DNA from: a virus
Direction: 5' to 3' (one strand)
IMG/VR virus record: IMGVR_UViG_3300046048_000391
Coordinates: 1-22,652 of that record
DNA length: 22,652 nt
Numbering within the stretch: position 1 is the stretch's first letter; each line of letters opens with the position of its first letter. Below, one piece after another: positions 1,170 to 22,652 of this stretch. Under the pieces are notes generated by a model, which was given only the letters and a program-made list of their open reading frames with translations, was not told the DNA's origin and ran no database searches. The translations under genes and the position numbers were made by a program.

Positions 1170-3773
1170 ATGAGCGCTTTACAATCCATCAGGAATTTTT
1201 TGCTCATGGACAAGGAAAGCCTCATCGCTGACGAAGCGAGGGGCAATGCTGTAGTTCCAGTCGCCGACGGGACGGTGGTTCCTATGGGGGCTGACGCTGG
1301 CGACGGATACCAGCATCTCTCGGCCATGCTCACAATGGACGCGAGCCTGATGCAGCGGTACGCCGATTACGAGAACATGGATGACTACCCTGAGCTTTGC
1401 GTAACAGGCGATACGCTTGTTCGAACGCTGGATGGTCCTGTGCGTATCGATAGCTTGGCACAGCGGTACGCCCCAGGTGAGCGCTTTGGGGTTATTGCCT
1501 ATGACATCGTCAGACGAGAGTTTGTGGCGGCTCAAGCGCACAGTCCACGACTCACAAAAAGGGACACTGTCTGTGAAGTTGTTTTTGATACTGGTGATGT
1601 CTTGCGATGTACCCTCGATCATAAAATTCTTACCAGGGATGGTCGTTGGGTGAAGGCGGCAGAATTAAGGGTCGGCGATAGTGTCATGCCGCTAAATTCA
1701 CGAGTAAATGCGTCTGGTTATATGCGTATAATGCATCCTGAAAAGCCAGCCAATGAGCGATGGGAATATCTTTACAGGGTAGTGGCGCGAACAAAATTTG
1801 GACAGTATGATACTGCCGAATATTCCGTGCATCATAAAGATGAAAACAAGCTCAACGATTCCTGGGAAAACATTGAGCTGTTGACACCTACCGAACACTA
1901 CAGGCTTCATCAGCCGTCATGGACTGATACATCGGCAAACTTAAAGTGGACAGATGAACGTCGGGAAAAACACGCCGAACGCTTACGCGGGAATGCCCAC
2001 CGGAAGGGCAAAACATTAACATTTGAGCAAAAGGAAGCGCTTGCTGCAAAGTGGAAATTCAAGCAGCGAAGCAATATTGTAGAGCTTCCGGTGATGTTGC
2101 AAGCAGTTAGGTCGAGTACATCACTAGCAGAGGCCGCCAGAAAACTTGGCCTGAATTGGAGTACTCTGTGCCGTCGATTGTCTCGAAACGGTCATGATTA
2201 TCGACGGGAGATTGGCAAGAACGGAACCAATCACAAGGTCGTTGCTGTGCGTGTATTGGGCGAGCAGGACGTTTACGATTTGACCACTGATAAATACCAT
2301 AACTTTGTTGCAAATGGGATAGTGGTACACAATTCCTCAGCGCTGGATTACTATGCGGACGACACCACCATTCCAGACAGCATCCATGGGAAAACGATCT
2401 GGGCCGTGTCCAGGGATCATTTGTTCAGGGATTTGATTGATGACTGTCTTCATCGCAGGATGAGGATAGAGGAAGATATTTGGCCTGCTGTACGTACATT
2501 TTGCAAGTACGGCAATCTGTTCGCTGAAAACGTTGTGGCGGATAAGCTCGGGCTGGTTGGGCTGAACTGGCTGCCGGTTCCCACTGTGCGTCGTGTCGTT
2601 GGCAAGAGGGGCAATTTGTTGGGCTACGTGCAGGATACTGCGTGCGAGTTCAACTTCATCTACAGCGATTTCGAGAGACTTCTGAAGGAGCGCGACAAGA
2701 AGGACAAGGATACTACCCAGGGTCGCGATCTGGAGTTCTTCTACCCGTGGGAAATAACCCATTGGCGGCTGCGCTCGAAGTACATGAGGTCGTTGTATGG
2801 TTATTCCATCCTCGATCCGGCGCGGTGGATTTGGAAGCGTCTCCAGATGCTCGAAGATACCGCCCTTGTTTATAAGCTGACGAGAAGCCCTGCCCGCTAC
2901 GCATTTTACATCGACACGTCTGACCTGCCGCCCAAGCAGGCTATGGCGCTCGTCGAGAAGGTGCGTCGCCGCTTCAAGAAGCGGAAGCTTATCGATCCCT
3001 CCACGGGCAAACTGGATTTCCGCTACAATCCGCTTACGCCGGACGAGGATTTCTTCATACCGGTCAGAAAGGACAAGGAGTCTACCCGTATCGATGTCAT
3101 CGCCGGTCCCGATTACCAGAACATGGACGACATAGAGTACTTCCGAGGGAAACTCATGTTCTCGGTGAAAATACCGCGTTCTTACTGGACGAGCGATGCC
3201 GAGCCGAATAAGGGCCAGGTAGCCCAAGAGGACGTTCGGTTCGCTCGGACGGCGATGAGAATCCAGCGTGAGTTTCGCAACGGGATCAAGCAGTCCGTTC
3301 GAGTACACCTGGCGGCGCTCAATATCGATCCAGACTCAACAAAGTGGGACATCAAGATGTCTGTGCCGAGTGCCATCTTCGAGCTACAACAGATCGAGGT
3401 CTTGAACGCGCAGGCTGGCCTTGCATCCTCCCTGGAGAATTGGTTCGACAAGGAGTGGATCATCCAGCATGTCTTCCATGCGACAGAGGATGATGCCGCC
3501 TACGTCATGCAGCAGAAGGCTGCCGAGCGCGACCGAGAGGCGAAGCAGGCTGCCGCGACAGAGCAGGAGATTGCCAATATTTTCCCGGACGCCAAACCTC
3601 CAGAGCCGCCTGGCGAAGCATCGGCCCAGGAGGATATTGCAGTGGATGAACGGATTCAGAGGTTGATAGAGTCGCAAGAAGAAACTAGGAAAACTACGAA
3701 GAAGGTGTTAAAAGAAGTGGCCAAGATGAAACCCACCTTTTTCCGAATGGTTGCAAATGATAGGAGGCGATGA
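1170..3773 (+). CDS. Portal protein (T4 gp20-like) containing an intein
   Basis: The portal is the dodecameric ring at the head vertex through which DNA enters and leaves, and on which the prohead is nucleated. The 867-residue precursor has an N-extein of 76 residues, an intein (residues 77-388) and a C-extein of 479. Spliced, it would be 555 residues, close to T4 gp20 (524). The splice junction rejoins MDDYPEL to SSALDYYADD, the conserved region of gp20-type portals. Further matches are the WxxRS.YMRSLYGYSILDPARWIWK-type segment, the KIPRSYW segment near a NKGQVAQEDVRFART stretch, and a C-terminal Lys/Glu-rich helix. The ATG directly follows the terminase TAA; GGTGA about 6 bases upstream is a weak ribosome-binding site, so translational coupling is likely. 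The last base pairs overlap the next gene (ATGATG). Confidence 0.9.
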   Translation: MSALQSIRNFLLMDKESLIADEARGNAVVPVADGTVVPMGADAGDGYQHLSAMLTMDASLMQRYADYENMDDYPELCVTGDTLVRTLDGPVRIDSLAQRYAPGERFGVIAYDIVRREFVAAQAHSPRLTKRDTVCEVVFDTGDVLRCTLDHKILTRDGRWVKAAELRVGDSVMPLNSRVNASGYMRIMHPEKPANERWEYLYRVVARTKFGQYDTAEYSVHHKDENKLNDSWENIELLTPTEHYRLHQPSWTDTSANLKWTDERREKHAERLRGNAHRKGKTLTFEQKEALAAKWKFKQRSNIVELPVMLQAVRSSTSLAEAARKLGLNWSTLCRRLSRNGHDYRREIGKNGTNHKVVAVRVLGEQDVYDLTTDKYHNFVANGIVVHNSSALDYYADDTTIPDSIHGKTIWAVSRDHLFRDLIDDCLHRRMRIEEDIWPAVRTFCKYGNLFAENVVADKLGLVGLNWLPVPTVRRVVGKRGNLLGYVQDTACEFNFIYSDFERLLKERDKKDKDTTQGRDLEFFYPWEITHWRLRSKYMRSLYGYSILDPARWIWKRLQMLEDTALVYKLTRSPARYAFYIDTSDLPPKQAMALVEKVRRRFKKRKLIDPSTGKLDFRYNPLTPDEDFFIPVRKDKESTRIDVIAGPDYQNMDDIEYFRGKLMFSVKIPRSYWTSDAEPNKGQVAQEDVRFARTAMRIQREFRNGIKQSVRVHLAALNIDPDSTKWDIKMSVPSAIFELQQIEVLNAQAGLASSLENWFDKEWIIQHVFHATEDDAAYVMQQKAAERDREAKQAAATEQEIANIFPDAKPPEPPGEASAQEDIAVDERIQRLIESQEETRKTTKKVLKEVAKMKPTFFRMVANDRRR
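1398..2333 (+). mobile_element. Intein with HNH homing endonuclease in portal gene
   Basis: A 312-residue intein. Block A is CVTGDTLVRTLDG, starting with Cys at codon 1398-1400. Block B is CTLDHKILTRDG. An HNH core contains VHHKDENKLNDSWENI followed by His-rich TEHYRLHQ. A helix-turn-helix-like segment (SLAEAARKLGLNWSTLCRR) comes next. Block F is VYDLTTDKYHNF and block G is VVHN before Ser+1 (TCC at 2334). All catalytic splicing residues are present: Cys1, block B Thr/His, penultimate His, last Asn, Ser+1. By eye, more codons end in A or T than in the extein, suggesting separate origin. Length, domain order and the shared NHKV...VYDL run-in to block F make it a relative of the terminase intein. 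Confidence 0.92.
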
Positions 3774-4633
3774 TGCCGTATGTACAGGGAAGCGCTCTGA
3801 GTAAAGTATTTGCTGGCAGTCTGGAGGCCCAGACCAACATGATCAAGGATGCCATCTCTGAGCACTACGGGGATTCCCCGGTCAATATAGTGTCAGTCCA
3901 CACGGATCATGCCTTCGGATTTGACGTGGACGGTAAATTCCTCAGATTCACCTACACCGTCGAGGATGGGGTGGTGAAGAACATTGACCAGAAGCCGTCC
4001 AAGGCTGTCAGGGTATGGGAGGATAACGAAGTCCCGCTCTTTGTCTCGAAGCAGCTTAAGTCGATGGTCAACAAGATGATGCGTGGGAAGCCGATAGAAC
4101 GAACTCAAGTTCGCGAGGTCGCGTCTGTCATACAGAGAGATGAGGACTACTGGCTATCCGGTGTGTTGGCGAAGCTGGACGAAGCCACCGGCGAAGCCGC
4201 CGAGTGGACGAAGATGTATGAGGCGAACAAGGAGCAGATACGGACTTCGCTCCATGGCCACATACGTGAGTACGAGGGCCGTTTACCCAAAACGCGCTAT
4301 TCCAAGATAGGCGCTGACAAGATCTCCGAGTTCGAGAACGAGTTGCGCGAATCCTTCGGGGTTGTGAACGCCGTTCTTCAACAGATAGTTGACGAATGTA
4401 CCGGGATAGTGTTTGATAAAGAGAGAGATGAGTTTTTCGGTGCCATACGAAAATCGTTGATCGCTGAAGCGCAGACCGTTGTAGGTCTGCTCGGCAAGGC
4501 CGAAAAGTTGATGGGTTCCGAAGATTTGGAATCCATGTCGATGGCACATGACAGGCTGGCCGAGTGGGCAAAAACAATGGTGGTCGTAGCTGAGTATTTG
4601 AAAGACAAGGCGCGGCCCGATAACGAGGAGTAG
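3773..4633 (+). CDS. Unassigned phage protein between portal and prohead protease
   Basis: I do not recognise the family. The protein is 286 residues (287 from the ATG at 3770). AGGAGG at 3762-3767 is only 2 bases from the ATG at 3770 but 5 from the ATG at 3773, so I prefer 3773; the gene overlaps the portal stop either way. Residues 1-85 look like a small mixed alpha/beta domain (VNIVSVHTDHAFGFDVDGKFLRFTY, split here by eye). The rest is charged and helical, with long amphipathic stretches. No Cys cluster except one near C-terminal third, no signal peptide and no membrane segment are seen. T4 places the small prohead-core proteins gp67 and gp68 at this point, so a head-core or scaffold accessory role is a reasonable inference from position only. 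Confidence 0.72.
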   Translation: MPYVQGSALSKVFAGSLEAQTNMIKDAISEHYGDSPVNIVSVHTDHAFGFDVDGKFLRFTYTVEDGVVKNIDQKPSKAVRVWEDNEVPLFVSKQLKSMVNKMMRGKPIERTQVREVASVIQRDEDYWLSGVLAKLDEATGEAAEWTKMYEANKEQIRTSLHGHIREYEGRLPKTRYSKIGADKISEFENELRESFGVVNAVLQQIVDECTGIVFDKERDEFFGAIRKSLIAEAQTVVGLLGKAEKLMGSEDLESMSMAHDRLAEWAKTMVVVAEYLKDKARPDNEE

Positions 4634-4636
4634 GAA

Positions 4637-5593
4637 ATGGATACCCGAAAAAAAGTCATAACGACTACCGTAGAAGAGGATTTCAAAGCAATTGGGTTGC
4701 CGCTGAACGAGGCCGAGCAGGGAATGCTCGGCGGCGTGCTCACCGAGGACGTTGGAACGCCCTTGACCTATCCGCAGGGGGGTCAAGCAGATCAGGAGCA
4801 GAGGCAGCAGGAGGACGTTGATCCAATCGACGGTCCTGTTGTGACCCGCGAGCTTCTGGAGCGCGTCTCGAATCTTCCGTTCGAGAACTTCGAGGAGGGC
4901 GATTTCGACGAGCTGCTGGAGGCTCTGAAGGCGAAGACACTCCCCGAAGATGACGAGGAGCTGAAGACGATGGCCGAGGGCGTCGTCAAGAAAATCCTCG
5001 ACGAGAAAATCGGAGTGAGGACACGTCGGCACAAGGCGCACTCGATGGGCAAGAAAGTATCCTTCCAGTGTGGCCCCGGTTTCAGAACCGATCCCAAGGA
5101 CCCGGCGGGCAAGCGCTGTGTCAGGTCGGTGGTGGCGGTGGGAGGCAAGGGCAAGCTCACCAGGGAGGAGCGCAAGAAAAGGCTCTGGGGACGTTCCGGC
5201 CAGGGTATGCACTCCAAAAAGGTGTCGGCTCGCTGGGCCGTACGTAGGCCGCGCAGGGAGTCCTCCGAGGGCCTAATCAGCCCATTCGCCGCCGAGCTGG
5301 CCGCTTTGACCGAGGGAACCTCCGAAGTCTCCGAGAGCGCGAGAGACGAGGTGATGGGTCGCATCGGTCGCATCTTCCGCCTGCTCCACGAGGAGTTCTT
5401 GGACCCGTCGGTGACGGAGATCTACGAGAACATCTACGAGGAACTGGACGAGGCATGGGAGGCAGGGAGGCTCGACGAGGAAGTCATGGAGCCAGAGGAC
5501 TTCGTTCGCGAGGTGAAACCAGCGCTGTCCCTTATCATGAAGTCGTTGGACCGGCTGGACCGGATCGACAAAGGGGAGCTGGAGGGAAACTGA
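4637..5593 (+). CDS. Unassigned prohead-region protein; 0-frame product of a probable -1 frameshift gene
   Basis: A 318-residue protein of unknown family. GAGGAG at 4625-4630 lies 6 bases before the ATG and overlaps the previous gene's stop. Residues 1-120 are acidic and partly helical. Residues 128-210 are strongly basic (RTRRHK, EERKKRLWGR, RWAVRRPRR) and contain a Cys pair, C145 and C161, in a turn-rich segment (FQCGPGFRTDP). Residues 212-318 are acidic and helical. Two LTE tripeptides (35-37, 224-226) match the (L/I)-x-E rule known for T4 prohead protease cleavage, so it may be trimmed during head maturation. The last two sense codons, GGA AAC, are part of a slippery heptamer just before the UGA stop; see the entries at 5572 and 5590. 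Position suggests a prohead-core role similar to T4 gp67/gp68, but no sequence match is claimed. Confidence 0.75.
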   Translation: MDTRKKVITTTVEEDFKAIGLPLNEAEQGMLGGVLTEDVGTPLTYPQGGQADQEQRQQEDVDPIDGPVVTRELLERVSNLPFENFEEGDFDELLEALKAKTLPEDDEELKTMAEGVVKKILDEKIGVRTRRHKAHSMGKKVSFQCGPGFRTDPKDPAGKRCVRSVVAVGGKGKLTREERKKRLWGRSGQGMHSKKVSARWAVRRPRRESSEGLISPFAAELAALTEGTSEVSESARDEVMGRIGRIFRLLHEEFLDPSVTEIYENIYEELDEAWEAGRLDEEVMEPEDFVREVKPALSLIMKSLDRLDRIDKGELEGN

Positions 5594-5617
5594 GCAGCCC
5601 CTCCTTGTACGAGGGGC
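5572..5617 (+). promoter_or_regulatory. Probable programmed -1 ribosomal frameshift signal
   Basis: Three elements stand in the classical order. A Shine-Dalgarno-like AGGGGAG is at 5572-5578. The heptamer GGGAAAC is at 5584-5590, in the correct phase G GGA AAC of the 4637-5593 frame. The UGA stop (5591-5593) follows at once. After a 6-base spacer comes a hairpin with a perfect 7-bp stem (GCCCCTC at 5597-5603 with GAGGGGC at 5611-5617) and a 7-base loop. Lambda G/GT uses GGGAAAG, and E. coli dnaX uses an SD, heptamer, stop and hairpin in the same order. The hairpin has no U-tract, so it is not a terminator. GGAGGG at 5581-5586 could alternatively pair with CCCTCC at 5599-5604, a structure exclusive with the hairpin. 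Function is inferred. Confidence 0.7.
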
Positions 5618-5805
5618 AACGAAAACGGCGAACGGCTTACAGGTCCGGTCGCCAGGAGTTAGCGGGTGTTGAATCGCTCAAACCGTTTGTCCGTCCTGAT
5701 GGAAAAAAGACGGATAGAAAAGTCTCTCCAGAAGCAAAGAGGAGAGAGGAGCGCAACCCACTTGCTCGAACAGAACTCCGGCACAAGCGCTGGAAGAAGT
5801 GGTGA
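5590..5805 (+). CDS. Basic 71-residue C-terminal extension reached by -1 frameshift
   Basis: The -1 frame after the heptamer is open for 71 codons, starting CTG AGC AGC (LSSPSLYEGQRKRRTAYRSG) and ending HKRWKKW before TGA at 5803-5805. That stop is 4 bases before the protease ATG at 5810, the spacing seen between real genes here. The peptide is extremely basic (rich in Arg and Lys, several RKRR, RREER and KRWKK clusters) with no hydrophobic core, like a nucleic-acid- or scaffold-binding tail. Full product: 389 residues with the upstream ORF. An independent start is the main alternative: CTG 5590 lies 3 bases after GGAGGG and TTG 5605 lies 18 bases after it, both poorly spaced, and no ATG exists in this frame. 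Either way the stretch 5594-5809 appears to be coding rather than empty. Confidence 0.62.
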   Translation: MSSPSLYEGQRKRRTAYRSGRQELAGVESLKPFVRPDGKKTDRKVSPEAKRREERNPLARTELRHKRWKKW

Positions 5806-5809
5806 GACA

Positions 5810-7432
5810 ATGGCAAAGCTTCTATATGAAGAGATTCCACATTTTTCTCAGTTCACCATCAATGAGGCGAAGGGCGGCAAGCTCATCGCTCGCGGTGAGT
5901 TCGGTCGCGTAGGTGTGCCGACGGAGAACGGGCGCATCTATCCCGAGGATTTGATGAACCGCGAATTCGAGCGCCTGATGGAATCCATCAAAGCGCGTAG
6001 GGTTCTTGGCGAGTTGGATCATCCGGCTGACGGCAAGACCTCCCTGAAGCGCGTTTCTCATGTCATCACAAATCTGATGATCAAGGACGGCATCGTCATC
6101 GGCGAGGCAGAGATTCTAAATACTCCCGAAGGCAAGACGCTGAGGGCGCTGATCGAGGCAAATGTGCAGGTCGGAGTGTCCTCTCGCGGATACGGCTCGA
6201 CGCAGCCGTCCACGGGCAAGACCGAGGGAGAGATAGTGCAGGACGACTTTGTGCTGAAGACCTACGACTTCGTAGGGGATCCGGCGATGAAGACCGCCGT
6301 TCCGGGAATCTTCACCGAGGATGTGGACGTGGAAGACGACGATCCCGCCGAGCTGTTTCTGACTGAGTTTCCAGAGATAGCCGAGGGCATCAAGTCGAAG
6401 GCTCTTGAGGAAGCCAAAAAAACCGGCAACAGCGAGGTGGACGAGGCCATAAAAGCCACCGAGGAGAGGGTTCGCAAGGAGCTGAGTGAAAATTTCGAGC
6501 GTGTATTGGCCGAAACGATCACCAGTGCCAAAGAGGAGTTGCGCGAGGAGTTGCGCGAGGAGCTGGGGAACGACCCCGAGGTGGGAGGAGCAAAGGCCAT
6601 TTTGGCGCAGGTCGCCGAGTTGGTCAGCACCTATCATGCTACGCCGGACGAGAAGGCCGTCGCGGACGCCTTGAAGGCAAAAGAGCTGGAGGTGGCCGAG
6701 GCCACATCTGAGCGTGACGAAGCAGCGGAGAAGGCCCTGGCCGCTGCGTTCCAGTTGCATATCGAGCGGCAGATCGGAAAGCACCCGATGGCCGACACGA
6801 TTCGCAAGCTGCTAAAGGGCAAGAAGTTTGAGTCCAAGGAAGAAGTGGACGAGACGCTCAAGGCAGTCTTGGCCGATCTCCCAGGTGAGGACGAAAACGA
6901 CGACCGCGTGTCTGCCGAGGAAGCGAAGCTTCGCGAGGATAACGCGGAACTACGAGGAGAAGTGACCCTGCTTTCGAGCAAGGTGGAAGATTTGAATAGC
7001 AAATTGCAGAAGGCTGCGAAGTTGGGAGAGCGGATTGATGAGCAGCGCAAGGCTGCTGCGCTCCGTGCAGAGGAAGCCGAAGAGGCCAAGGAGAAGGCCC
7101 AGAAGCAGTTGGAGGATCTCAAGGAGGCCCACGAGCTGTCGGTTTACAAGCACGATAGGGTAGTCGGGTTGACGAACGGTAGAGAGTTGCTGGCCTTGAT
7201 GGAGGATGTAAACTCCAAGGCTGCGGTGGACAGGTTGGTCCGTGAAAAGGGGTCGAGGGAAATCGCCGATGGCGAGCTGCGAACGATGACTCAGAGCCTA
7301 AAGAGAGGAATTGGGGAACGGTCGCAGTCATTAACCGAAGACAAACCAGCAAAACAACCCGCGTTGTCTAAAGCTGACACGGGGTTAGAGGAAGACGAGA
7401 TGCTGGAACTGGCGGGAGTTACGACAGGATAA
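5810..7432 (+). CDS. Prohead core protease (T4 gp21-like) fused to a coiled-coil scaffold-like domain
   Basis: A 540-residue protein. Residues 1 to about 175 form the protease that matures the prohead. Motifs are VPTENGRIYPEDLM, GELDHP with His71, VGVSSRGYGST with Ser124/Ser125 as nucleophile candidates, and DFVGDPAMKTAV. These match the His and Ser regions of the gp21-type family. T4 gp21 is only 212 residues. Here some 360 more residues follow, Glu/Lys/Ala-rich with long heptad-like helices at about 215-330 and 370-455, resembling T4 gp22 core scaffold. This implies protease and scaffold in one chain. I chose ATG 5810 (GGTGAG 4 bases upstream) over the in-frame GTG at 5666, because the extra 48 residues overlap the basic frameshift ORF and precede the family's usual start. 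Several (L/I)-x-E sites (LTE, IAE, LAE) suit self-processing. The major capsid gene follows after 23 bases. Confidence 0.87.
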   Translation: MAKLLYEEIPHFSQFTINEAKGGKLIARGEFGRVGVPTENGRIYPEDLMNREFERLMESIKARRVLGELDHPADGKTSLKRVSHVITNLMIKDGIVIGEAEILNTPEGKTLRALIEANVQVGVSSRGYGSTQPSTGKTEGEIVQDDFVLKTYDFVGDPAMKTAVPGIFTEDVDVEDDDPAELFLTEFPEIAEGIKSKALEEAKKTGNSEVDEAIKATEERVRKELSENFERVLAETITSAKEELREELREELGNDPEVGGAKAILAQVAELVSTYHATPDEKAVADALKAKELEVAEATSERDEAAEKALAAAFQLHIERQIGKHPMADTIRKLLKGKKFESKEEVDETLKAVLADLPGEDENDDRVSAEEAKLREDNAELRGEVTLLSSKVEDLNSKLQKAAKLGERIDEQRKAAALRAEEAEEAKEKAQKQLEDLKEAHELSVYKHDRVVGLTNGRELLALMEDVNSKAAVDRLVREKGSREIADGELRTMTQSLKRGIGERSQSLTEDKPAKQPALSKADTGLEEDEMLELAGVTTG

Positions 7433-7455: not shown

Positions 7456-9063
7456 ATGGACCAAGGAGAGATCGAAGCCAGAGCATTGCTCGAAGCCGCA
7501 GGACCGAGATCCGTGCATGACAAAAGCTACGCCGCCGCTTGCATGAACAAGTGGGGTAAGATGCTCAACGGCATCCAGAACGGCTATGTCAAGAAATGCA
7601 CAGCCATCCTGCTCGAAAACCAGATGGAGCACGTAAAGAGTCTGCAAGAGGACACCCTCTCCACAGACACCGGCGCGTTCCACAAGTACACCTTCCCGAT
7701 CTTGCGGAGGGTTTGGCCGAACCTGATCGCGAATCAGCTCGTGTCGGTGCAGCCGACGACCTCGCCGGTCGCCGCGATGTTCTACTACGAGAAGAAGTTC
7801 GACGACAGGAAGGGCACCAAGATACCGCAAGGCGGAATCGCGAACAACCCGACCGACATGAGCTACGACGGCGAAGTGAACTCGGGCGACAACATGATCC
7901 AGAACTTCGCCAAGTACTACAGCTCGGAGTTCAACGACTACGACGTGACCTGCACGGATACCGGCGTGGGCACGGCGACGCTGAACCAAGGTGGTGCCAA
8001 CTGCCGCGTGACAGAGTGGTCGCCCATCCGAACTCCCGCAACGGACGGACAGCGGACGTTCTACGTGAAAGCGTACTACCGCTGCCTCGATGCCGATAAC
8101 GCCAGTGCGGACACGGCGGTCGTGGCAACCCTGAACGGGTCCGGCAACCTGATCGACGACCTGAATTCCAACAACGTTGGAACCTTCACCGTCGCGAACG
8201 GCAACTGGGCCATCACTCCGCTGGGATCTGCCGGTTCCGCGTCGAACTTCACCTCCAACACCGTGATCTACTTCCAGTACTTCGTGAACTGGGAGCAGGT
8301 GGGCTACACCACCGGGGCCAAGATCCCGAGTATCAGCCTGGAAATCACCCTCTACACCGTCAAGGTCGAGAGCCGGAAGCTCAAGGCCCGCTGGACGGTC
8401 GAGGCGGTGGACGACATGCGGGCGCTCCACGGCCTGGATGTCGAGACGGAGATCGTTTCCACGTTCTCCAACGACGTGATGCTGGAAGTGGACCGCGAGA
8501 TCGTAACGGACCTCGTGAACGGAGCGGCTCACACTGCCACTTACACTTACGCCGCAACCACTCCGGGCGAGATCGAGACGATTCGTGCGCTGATAACCAA
8601 GGTCGCCGCGATGTCGGCTCGCATCCACAAAACCTCGGGCAGAGCGCCCGCGAACTTCATGGTCGTTTCGCCAGCGGTTCAGGCGCTCCTGGATCAGCTC
8701 TCGACGCACGGCGACTACGCCAGCATCGAGCAGAACGTCCAGCAGACCAGCTACGGGCCGGTCATGGCGAACTTCGGCATCAGCCGAGTCGGCACCTTGC
8801 TCCGCAAGTGGGCGGTCTACGTGGATCCGTACATGGACGAGGACAAGATTCTCGTCGGCCTCAAGGGGAACAACTTCCTCGACGCGGGCTACGTGTACGC
8901 TCCTTACGTGCCGCTGCAAGTGACGCCGACCTTCATGGAGCCGAACGACTTCACGTTCCGCAAGGGCGTGAGGACTCGGTACGCCACGAAGATGCTGCGT
9001 AACGAGTACTACGGCGTGATCACCTGTTCCGGCCTGCCCAGCGTGACCACCACATTGCCGTAG
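7456..9063 (+). CDS. Major capsid protein (T4 gp23-like, HK97 fold)
   Basis: This 535-residue protein builds the icosahedral shell. GGAGAG lies shortly before the ATG. Recognisable gp23-family segments are RRVWPNLIANQLVSVQPTT with SPVAAMFYYEKK at about 85-115, KLKARWTVEAVDDMRALHGLD at about 310-332, the following ETEIVSTFSNDVMLEVDREI, and the C-terminal VDPYMDEDKILVGLKGNNFLDAGYVYAPYVPL segment (quoted in parts). Residues about 155-290 are Thr/Asn/Gly-rich and beta-like, the place of the insertion domain of gp23/gp24. The N-terminal arm is short; LLE at 11-13 before AAG fits the (L/I)-x-E prohead protease rule, predicting loss of 13 residues. Codons are strongly C-ending (GAC, AAC, TTC, TAC) compared with neighbours, as expected for the most expressed virion gene. 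Confidence 0.95.
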   Translation: MDQGEIEARALLEAAGPRSVHDKSYAAACMNKWGKMLNGIQNGYVKKCTAILLENQMEHVKSLQEDTLSTDTGAFHKYTFPILRRVWPNLIANQLVSVQPTTSPVAAMFYYEKKFDDRKGTKIPQGGIANNPTDMSYDGEVNSGDNMIQNFAKYYSSEFNDYDVTCTDTGVGTATLNQGGANCRVTEWSPIRTPATDGQRTFYVKAYYRCLDADNASADTAVVATLNGSGNLIDDLNSNNVGTFTVANGNWAITPLGSAGSASNFTSNTVIYFQYFVNWEQVGYTTGAKIPSISLEITLYTVKVESRKLKARWTVEAVDDMRALHGLDVETEIVSTFSNDVMLEVDREIVTDLVNGAAHTATYTYAATTPGEIETIRALITKVAAMSARIHKTSGRAPANFMVVSPAVQALLDQLSTHGDYASIEQNVQQTSYGPVMANFGISRVGTLLRKWAVYVDPYMDEDKILVGLKGNNFLDAGYVYAPYVPLQVTPTFMEPNDFTFRKGVRTRYATKMLRNEYYGVITCSGLPSVTTTLP

Positions 9064-12586: not shown

Positions 12587-20744
<8,158 letters not shown>

Positions 20745-21521: not shown

Positions 21522-22652
21522 ATGTTGACTGTTGCGATGATTGTAAAAGATGAGGTTGCTACGCTGGAACGGGCGGTGATGTCCGTGAAGGAGTACGTCG
21601 ATGAGGTGGTTATCGGCGTCGATCAGGCGTCGCAGGACGGCACCAGGGAGTTGGCCAAAAAGTTGGCCGACAAAGTGCTCACGCACCATCTGGACGCAGA
21701 GCTGAAGCGCAGAGGGCCAAGGCCGTCGAAGAAGCCCTCGACGGACTGGGGGTTTTCCAAGGCCAGAAACCAGGTGCTCGCTCAATGCAAGAAAGAAAAC
21801 TGGCGATTATGGCTGGACGGCCACGAGATTTTGCACAACCCGGAAGGAGTGATCGCGGCCATTGAAAAGGCCAAGAAGTGGGGATGCGACGGGATCGAGG
21901 CCAAGATCCTGTTTGAACCGGACGAATATGGAGTTCCGAATCGAATATACAACCAGGGGCGCGTATTCGCTCCGTCCGTTCGGTTCAGGAATCCGCAGCA
22001 CAATGTTCCGGTGGTCAACAAGACCTACTTCTCTGACGCATTCACTGTGGAGCACAGGAAGCAAGACCAGGCTCCGGCGGCGAAGCAGGCCAGGGATGCA
22101 CAGCGAAGCGTGGCCACTGTCGCGGGCTTCGAGAAGGAGACGCTGGAGAATCCGGCGAATTCGAGGTCATGGTTCTATCTTGGGAACGCTTACAGGGAGA
22201 ACGCTCGGTGGCTGGACGGTGTTGAAGCTTACAAGAAGTGCCTAGAGGTCAGCGCGTGGAATGAAGAGAGGTGGCACGCCAGGGTCAACCTGGGAACTTG
22301 CTACGCTCGCCTTGGAGATCCTCTGAGGGCGAGGGTGGAGTTTGCGCGCGCGCTGGAAGAGTTTCCGGCCTACGCCGAAGCGTATTTTTACCTCGGCGAC
22401 ATGGCGTACAAGGACCGGAATTACAGAGAGGCTCAGGTATGGTTGGAGAAGTGTGTGCAGCTCGACATGCCCTACAGCAAACTGTTTGTGAATCCCAAGA
22501 TATATCTGGTTGACAGATATGACTTGCTTTCGATGGTGTACGATCATCTCGGGCATTACGCCAAGGCCATAGAGTTCGGCGAAAAGGCATTGGAGAACAC
22601 GACCAACCCGCGTATCGCGAAGAATGTGAAGATCTGGAGCGACTGGGTTGTG
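21522..22652 (+). CDS. Family 2 glycosyltransferase with C-terminal TPR repeats (3' end outside window)
   Basis: The frame is open from ATG 21522 to the right edge, 377 codons with no stop. AGGAG about 10 bases upstream gives the start. Residues 1-200 are a GT-A, family 2-type domain that moves a sugar from a nucleotide-sugar to an acceptor: MIVKDEVATLERAV start, DEVVIGVDQASQDGT (34-41 region), WGFSKARNQVL at 76-86, and WLDGHE at 97-102 in place of the usual metal-binding LDxDE. The later GVPNRIYNQGRVF also fits the family. From about residue 213, TPR repeats follow (SWFYLGNAYRENARW; RVNLGTCYARLGDPLRA; AYFYLGDMAYKDRNY; LLSMVYDHLGHYAKA), about four in view, which usually bind protein partners. 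Coming right after the collagen-like fibre, it is a candidate for glycosylating its threonines. The metal-site His (LDGHE, not LDADE) is slightly unusual. Confidence 0.87.
   Translation, partial: MLTVAMIVKDEVATLERAVMSVKEYVDEVVIGVDQASQDGTRELAKKLADKVLTHHLDAELKRRGPRPSKKPSTDWGFSKARNQVLAQCKKENWRLWLDGHEILHNPEGVIAAIEKAKKWGCDGIEAKILFEPDEYGVPNRIYNQGRVFAPSVRFRNPQHNVPVVNKTYFSDAFTVEHRKQDQAPAAKQARDAQRSVATVAGFEKETLENPANSRSWFYLGNAYRENARWLDGVEAYKKCLEVSAWNEERWHARVNLGTCYARLGDPLRARVEFARALEEFPAYAEAYFYLGDMAYKDRNYREAQVWLEKCVQLDMPYSKLFVNPKIYLVDRYDLLSMVYDHLGHYAKAIEFGEKALENTTNPRIAKNVKIWSDWVV

Follow-up and report, generated by a model that had tools for sequence, protein, structure and literature searches.

Gene order at the locus

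The window, a virus record of 22.7 kb (22,652 nucleotides) taken over its whole length, was annotated from its open reading frames and from domain matches. It begins with a partial ORF (6-1169) carrying an intein-like insert with the C-terminal splice motif VFVHN-S and an HNH endonuclease, followed by a T4-type portal gene with an intein (1170-3773; PF07230, E 7e-59; Intein_splicing, E 9e-19; HNH_3, E 9e-8), so that two neighbouring genes each bear an intein-like insert with an HNH endonuclease. A gene without known function (3770-4633) separates the portal from the gene studied here, which occupies 4637-5593 on the plus strand and encodes a probable prohead-core protein of 318 residues. PHROG and Pfam matches place this gene next to a gp21-like head maturation protease of the Peptidase_S77 type (5810-7432, plus strand; phrog_207, E 5e-42; PF03420, E 1e-14), which is followed by a Gp23-type major capsid gene (7456-9063). 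Another IMG/VR contig, 3300045959_000210, is identical to the window over the part that it covers.

The protease (5810-7432) continues into a long C-terminal extension rich in coiled coil, and the capsid gene is not preceded by a gp22-like scaffold gene of its own; the protease ORF may be a protease-scaffold fusion. Further downstream, one ORF of 2574 amino acids (13020-20744) consists mostly of Gly-X-Thr/Pro collagen-like repeats, with a PF01391 match (E 2e-70) on its first 493 residues, while the last ORF (21522-22652), open at the window end, encodes a Glycosyltransferase family 2 domain and then TPR repeats.

Probable frameshift signal in the window

The 318-codon frame ends in GAG GGA AAC TGA, which places the heptamer G_GGA_AAC (5584-5590, plus strand) in the phase for -1 slippage, with GGA as XXY, AAC as YYZ and the TGA directly 3' of it (5591-5593). 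A 6-nt spacer (5591-5596) leads to a predicted hairpin at 5597-5617, in which GCCCCTC (5597-5603) and GAGGGGC (5611-5617) form 7 bp around a 7-nt loop, and the Shine-Dalgarno (SD)-like AGGGGAG (5572-5578), a possible upstream stimulator, lies 5 nt 5' of the heptamer. From 5590 the -1 frame stays open for 71 codons, encoding a tail with 22 Lys and Arg vs 9 Asp and Glu residues and the motif RKRRTAYRSGRxE, and it closes at a stop (5803-5805) separated by 4 nt from the ATG of the protease gene at 5810. The original prediction had described this arrangement, namely the phased heptamer with its adjacent UGA, the spacer and perfect hairpin, the SD-like element, and the Arg/Lys-rich frame closing just before the protease, and each of these elements is present.

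The window carries CTGA at the gene end and has no ATG, GTG or TTG overlapping the upstream stop; the sole such codon in the -1 frame between the heptamer and the conserved core of the tail is TTG 5605, inside the hairpin. The z-score of the hairpin varies with the stretch folded, from -1.4 (57 nt) and -1.2 (80 nt) to -4.4 for the 60 nt that start 4 nt past the heptamer. GGGAAAC occurs seven times in the window, counting all frames, and is therefore not rare as such, so that the case for frameshifting rests on comparative data.

Conservation of the tail

Viral and genome scans, followed by an iterated tail profile, recovered a tail homologue immediately before the protease gene in 258 loci of IMG/VR and MAG origin, comprising 129 distinct tails; the original prediction had proposed such a search of relatives. 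Even in L004, a distant relative whose protease is 37% identical, the gene preceding the protease has RRTAYRSGR in its -1 frame. The profile found no match in 14 loci, several of them incomplete; among profile-negative loci, L098 (GGGAAACTGA), L239 and L245 (GPF..., CCCTTTC type) have a diverged -1 tail recognizable by eye.

Among equal-length tails of 75-97% identity, substitutions fell on codon positions 1/2/3 in a ratio of 726/342/1950, counts drawn from pairs that are not independent but with a plain direction, and changed codons were synonymous in 1750 cases vs non-synonymous in 645, compared with 277:2192 and 99:2335 in the other two frames. Judged by this coding constraint, the 71-residue basic tail is a real protein. 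Outside the family, tblastn with four different tails found no match among GenBank phages, and searches with the tail against PHROGs, Pfam and PDB sequences returned nothing. The AlphaFold model of the tail alone was uninformative (mean pLDDT 65).

Conservation of the heptamer

The heptamer was sought in the 116 distinct loci in which the tail lies in the -1 frame of the upstream ORF. An in-phase X_XXY_YYZ heptamer with its last base at most 30 nt from the zero-frame stop is present in 81 of the 116, vs 2.3 expected from the rate within the same genes (45 in 24,611 codon pairs), and the other two phases yielded 3 and 8 heptamers in the same loci. In-phase heptamers cluster at 0 nt (27), 3 nt (37) and 6 nt (7) from the stop, and 69 distinct loci have one within 6 nt before it. 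The conservation of the heptamer that the original prediction proposed to look for is thus borne out, and the excess persists when loci are thinned by protease identity: 48/70 at below 80%, 29/46 at below 70%, 17/22 at below 60% and 10/12 at below 55%.

Wherever the last or last-but-one codon pair encodes Gly-Asn, it is written GGA AAC (53/53), compared with 2/39 in gene bodies. Other loci share the design with GGGAAAC replaced by GGGAAAA, AAACCCT, CCCAAAC, CCCTTTC, AAAAAAA or AAAAAAC (AAAAAAN), and the zero-frame stops in the 81 heptamer loci are of all three kinds (TGA 36, TAG 27, TAA 18). From these comparisons, the heptamer is kept as nucleotides, not as amino acids, and the agreement exceeds chance very strongly.

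Exceptions fall into several groups. In five loci the heptamer lies farther from the stop, at 39-57 nt before it, and about 12 tail loci lack both a heptamer and a start codon near the stop. Five of the latter, L102 (2162-2191), L106, L157, L252 and L257, have in common CGC CCT A(C/T)C at most a few codons away from the upstream stop; their tail is in the -1 frame, for the most part with no start codon, and the motif is possibly a different slippery site, permitting a C_CCT slip. An in-frame fusion considered for L009 was rejected as a chance GC-rich open frame.

RNA structure and upstream elements

Across the family, a 60-nt stretch that begins 4 nt past the heptamer folds better than its dinucleotide shuffles (mean z -1.98, vs -0.45 for upstream stretches), a difference with a Mann-Whitney P of 3e-11 computed over loci that are not independent. 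The 11 sequences of the clade nearest to the window share a two-part stem beginning 8 nt past the heptamer, with 92.6% of cells paired, compared with 36-50% in slid controls; six of its pairs have changed on both sides, giving 13 double-change cells, and its covariation exceeds that of all 500 shuffles. A second clade keeps CCGCTTATC/GGTAAGCGG, the loop between them being variable, and one pair has changed on both sides from A-U to G-C. Upstream of the heptamer, pairing to the anti-SD is modestly enriched in the family (mean -5.6 vs -3.9 kcal/mol), though not universal. Candidate stimulators of the expected kind, a structure 5-9 nt downstream and/or an SD upstream, are found as a family trend.

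The predicted hairpin of the window differs from the stems of both clades, such that its role as a downstream stimulator, which is likely, is assigned by analogy. Rfam gave chance matches only at the site. In another locus, L026, an inverted repeat, GAGGTCTACGACCTC (3220-3264), lies directly 5' of a GGGAAAA heptamer.

Start codons and a clade with a separate tail gene

Between 45 nt before the stop and the conserved core, 62 of the 81 heptamer loci have no ATG, GTG or TTG in the tail frame. The -1 frame opens at most 28 nt before the stop in 33 heptamer loci, which implies entry from upstream within a short stretch that holds the heptamer; 27 of these lack ATG, GTG and TTG, and 13 lack CTG, ATT, ATC and ATA as well.

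The original prediction had named, as evidence that would count against it, relatives that keep the tail as a separate gene and lack the heptamer. Such relatives do exist, essentially in one clade, mostly with GTGA or ATGA over the upstream stop, whereas elsewhere the tail follows a slippery site and mostly has no start. In the protease tree, a single supported set of 22 rows holds 20 of the 23 separate-gene rows together with two heptamer rows, and the heptamer state occupies the deep branches; the tree has no root, so that the direction of the swap cannot be read from it. The separate genes have N-termini of their own, such as MNLIPVDLLLEVAK in L107, and on sequence grounds their existence confirms that the tail is a real protein. 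Since GTGA and ATGA are likewise -1 overlaps, a swap between stop-start coupling and slippage is easy to picture.

Probable programmed frameshifting and its alternatives

Taken together, these data make it very probable that the 4637-5593 gene contains a conserved programmed -1 frameshift that gives two protein forms. Ribosomes translating the 318-residue frame would reach G_GGA_AAC just before the UGA, where most would terminate and release the short form, while a fraction would slip back one base on GGA AAC and re-pair with GGG AAA, aided by the stop codon, the downstream RNA stem and, in many cases, an SD-like sequence upstream. Slipped ribosomes would read 71 more codons, yielding a 389-residue long form that ends in the conserved Arg/Lys-rich tail. 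We infer that slippage occurs in cells at some frequency. The features expected of a programmed -1 frameshift are an in-phase heptamer beyond chance and a coding -1 extension without its own start, and both are found, one clade differing in the latter; with the heptamer, the tail and, in the nearest clades, a downstream stem kept across many relatives, comparative sequence data thus favour the -1 reading originally predicted. In E. coli, which may not be the host of this virus, GGGAAAC is, as far as is known, not as slippery as sites of the GGGAAAG type. This property, the dozen or so loci with neither heptamer nor start, and the separate-gene clade count against the frameshift reading.

The best-surviving alternative, which we regard as improbable, is that termination-reinitiation at or close to the upstream stop, from TTG 5605 or from a CTG over the stop, yields the tail as a small protein of its own, and that GGGA is nothing but a ribosome-binding site. 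The clade with a separate gene and its GTGA or ATGA overlap would fit this explanation, as would the fact that a heptamer directly at the UGA creates AAACUGA, in which a CTG overlaps the stop. However, a heptamer 3 nt before the stop (GGGAAACGAnTAA) leaves no CTG at that place, 62 of the 81 heptamer loci have no ATG, GTG or TTG where one is needed, and 13 are without any near-cognate codon. Moreover, a ribosome-binding site needs neither a codon phase nor an invariant GGA AAC and would not be swapped for AAACCCT or CCCTTTC, and the TTG of the window, enclosed in the hairpin, has no SD and is not conserved.

Transcriptional rather than ribosomal slippage could also yield a -1 product, and runs of seven to eight A at the site in some loci (L024, L170) would be suited to it. 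Yet the dominant sites, GGGAAAC and CCCTTTC, contain runs of three identical bases, too short for known transcriptional slippage, and slippage by the ribosome agrees with the codon phase, the stop next to the heptamer and the RNA stems downstream of it, leaving transcriptional slippage very improbable. Finally, although GC-rich DNA, the window included, gives many long chance open frames, a chance frame behind the gene end, or a sequencing error splitting one gene, is refuted by the comparative data, with the tail kept as protein in 129 distinct sequences from independent metagenomes, an upstream-frame stop that is always there in the form of three different codons, and a non-random heptamer.

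Possible role of the two forms in the prohead core

From its gene position only, the product of the zero frame is a probable prohead-core protein. It has a basic middle part with Cys pairs and an acidic C-terminal part, predicted to be helical by AlphaFold (mean pLDDT 77), with 29 Asp and Glu vs 11 Lys and Arg among the last 110 residues. Searches with the zero-frame proteins against PHROGs, Pfam and PDB sequences gave scattered single-member or sub-threshold matches only, and Foldseek with the zero-frame model gave nothing below E 0.2.

By analogy, the acidic helical end, the basic tail and the gene position suggest a core protein made in two charge forms. The interval between the portal (gp20 in T4) and the gp21-type protease is the one that holds gp67 and gp68 in T4, where the end of gp67 is acidic and that of gp68 basic. 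Those are two ordinary genes expressed with no frameshift, and homology to them was rejected: hhalign gave a probability below 1% for the tail and zero-frame profile against gp68, and no member of the family matched phrog_1064, the family of gp67. The T4 core proteins are present in set copy numbers, about 340 for gp67 and about 240 for gp68 (PMC9958956), and gp68 has been linked to head size (Keller et al. 1984, as cited in PMC9026906). PMC9958956 describes the structure of the T4 core and the placement of proteins within it as unresolved. It is about evenly balanced, in our judgement, whether both forms belong to the prohead core, the basic tail binding DNA, the shell or an acidic partner in the core, and frameshifting fixing the ratio.

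More tentatively, and with the balance leaning somewhat against it, -1 frameshifting could be an old and prevalent means by which a broad group of uncultured T4-like phages joins a conserved basic domain to a prohead-core protein, its slippery site having been replaced several times and swapped with the GTGA/ATGA overlap in one clade, so that the two devices would be interchangeable for dosing a core component, perhaps contributing to the setting of head size.

Comparison with known systems

Tail chaperones and major capsid genes are the best-known places of conserved phage frameshifts, whereas the present one lies in the portal-to-protease interval. The available text of PMC5009743 places phage frameshifts in tail chaperones and capsid proteins and does not contain the words "prohead" or "scaffold", and PRFect (PMC10885494) names capsids, not portal or prohead genes. 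No earlier report of a frameshift at this prohead-region site was found in the papers searched, most subscription literature lying outside the search; within that scope the novelty claimed by the original prediction holds, and no description of frameshifting next to the head protease seems to exist so far. What is new is the gene, the place and the lineage, the mechanism itself being of a familiar kind. The gene pair has no known relatives, and routine annotation would overlook the tail or label it a separate gene. The family makes it possible to test how the composition of the core is dosed in large myovirus heads, and its members form a natural series that delivers one domain either by slippage or by stop-start coupling.

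The dnaX gene of E. coli likewise combines an SD-like element, a heptamer, a nearby stop and a downstream stem, but its site is A_AAA_AAG and its shifted product is shorter, whereas here the site is mostly G_GGA_AAC and the shifted product longer. According to PMC5009743, G_GGA_AAC has been given for the haloarchaeal virus HCTV-1.

Lambda G/GT (Xu, Hendrix and Duda 2004, cited in PMC7230728 and PMC3483164) resembles the present case in its heptamer, which lies close to the end of a small gene of a structural module, in a C-terminally extended minority product, and in wide conservation among dsDNA phages. That site precedes the tape measure gene, while ours lies in another gene, between portal and protease, encodes unrelated protein sequences, has its stop within 0-6 nt of the heptamer and commonly has a stem. 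Placed between portal and protease, not next to a tape measure gene, and without a PHROG match, the gene does not fit the tail-chaperone family.

The capsid frameshifts of T7/T3, Lactobacillus phage A2 and Listeria phages A118, A500 and PSA likewise produce two forms of a head gene that differ by a C-terminal extension, through a shift near the stop, and they extend the shell protein, often with an Ig-like domain or by a +1 shift (PMC5009743). Here, by contrast, a non-shell gene beside the protease would gain a short basic tail.
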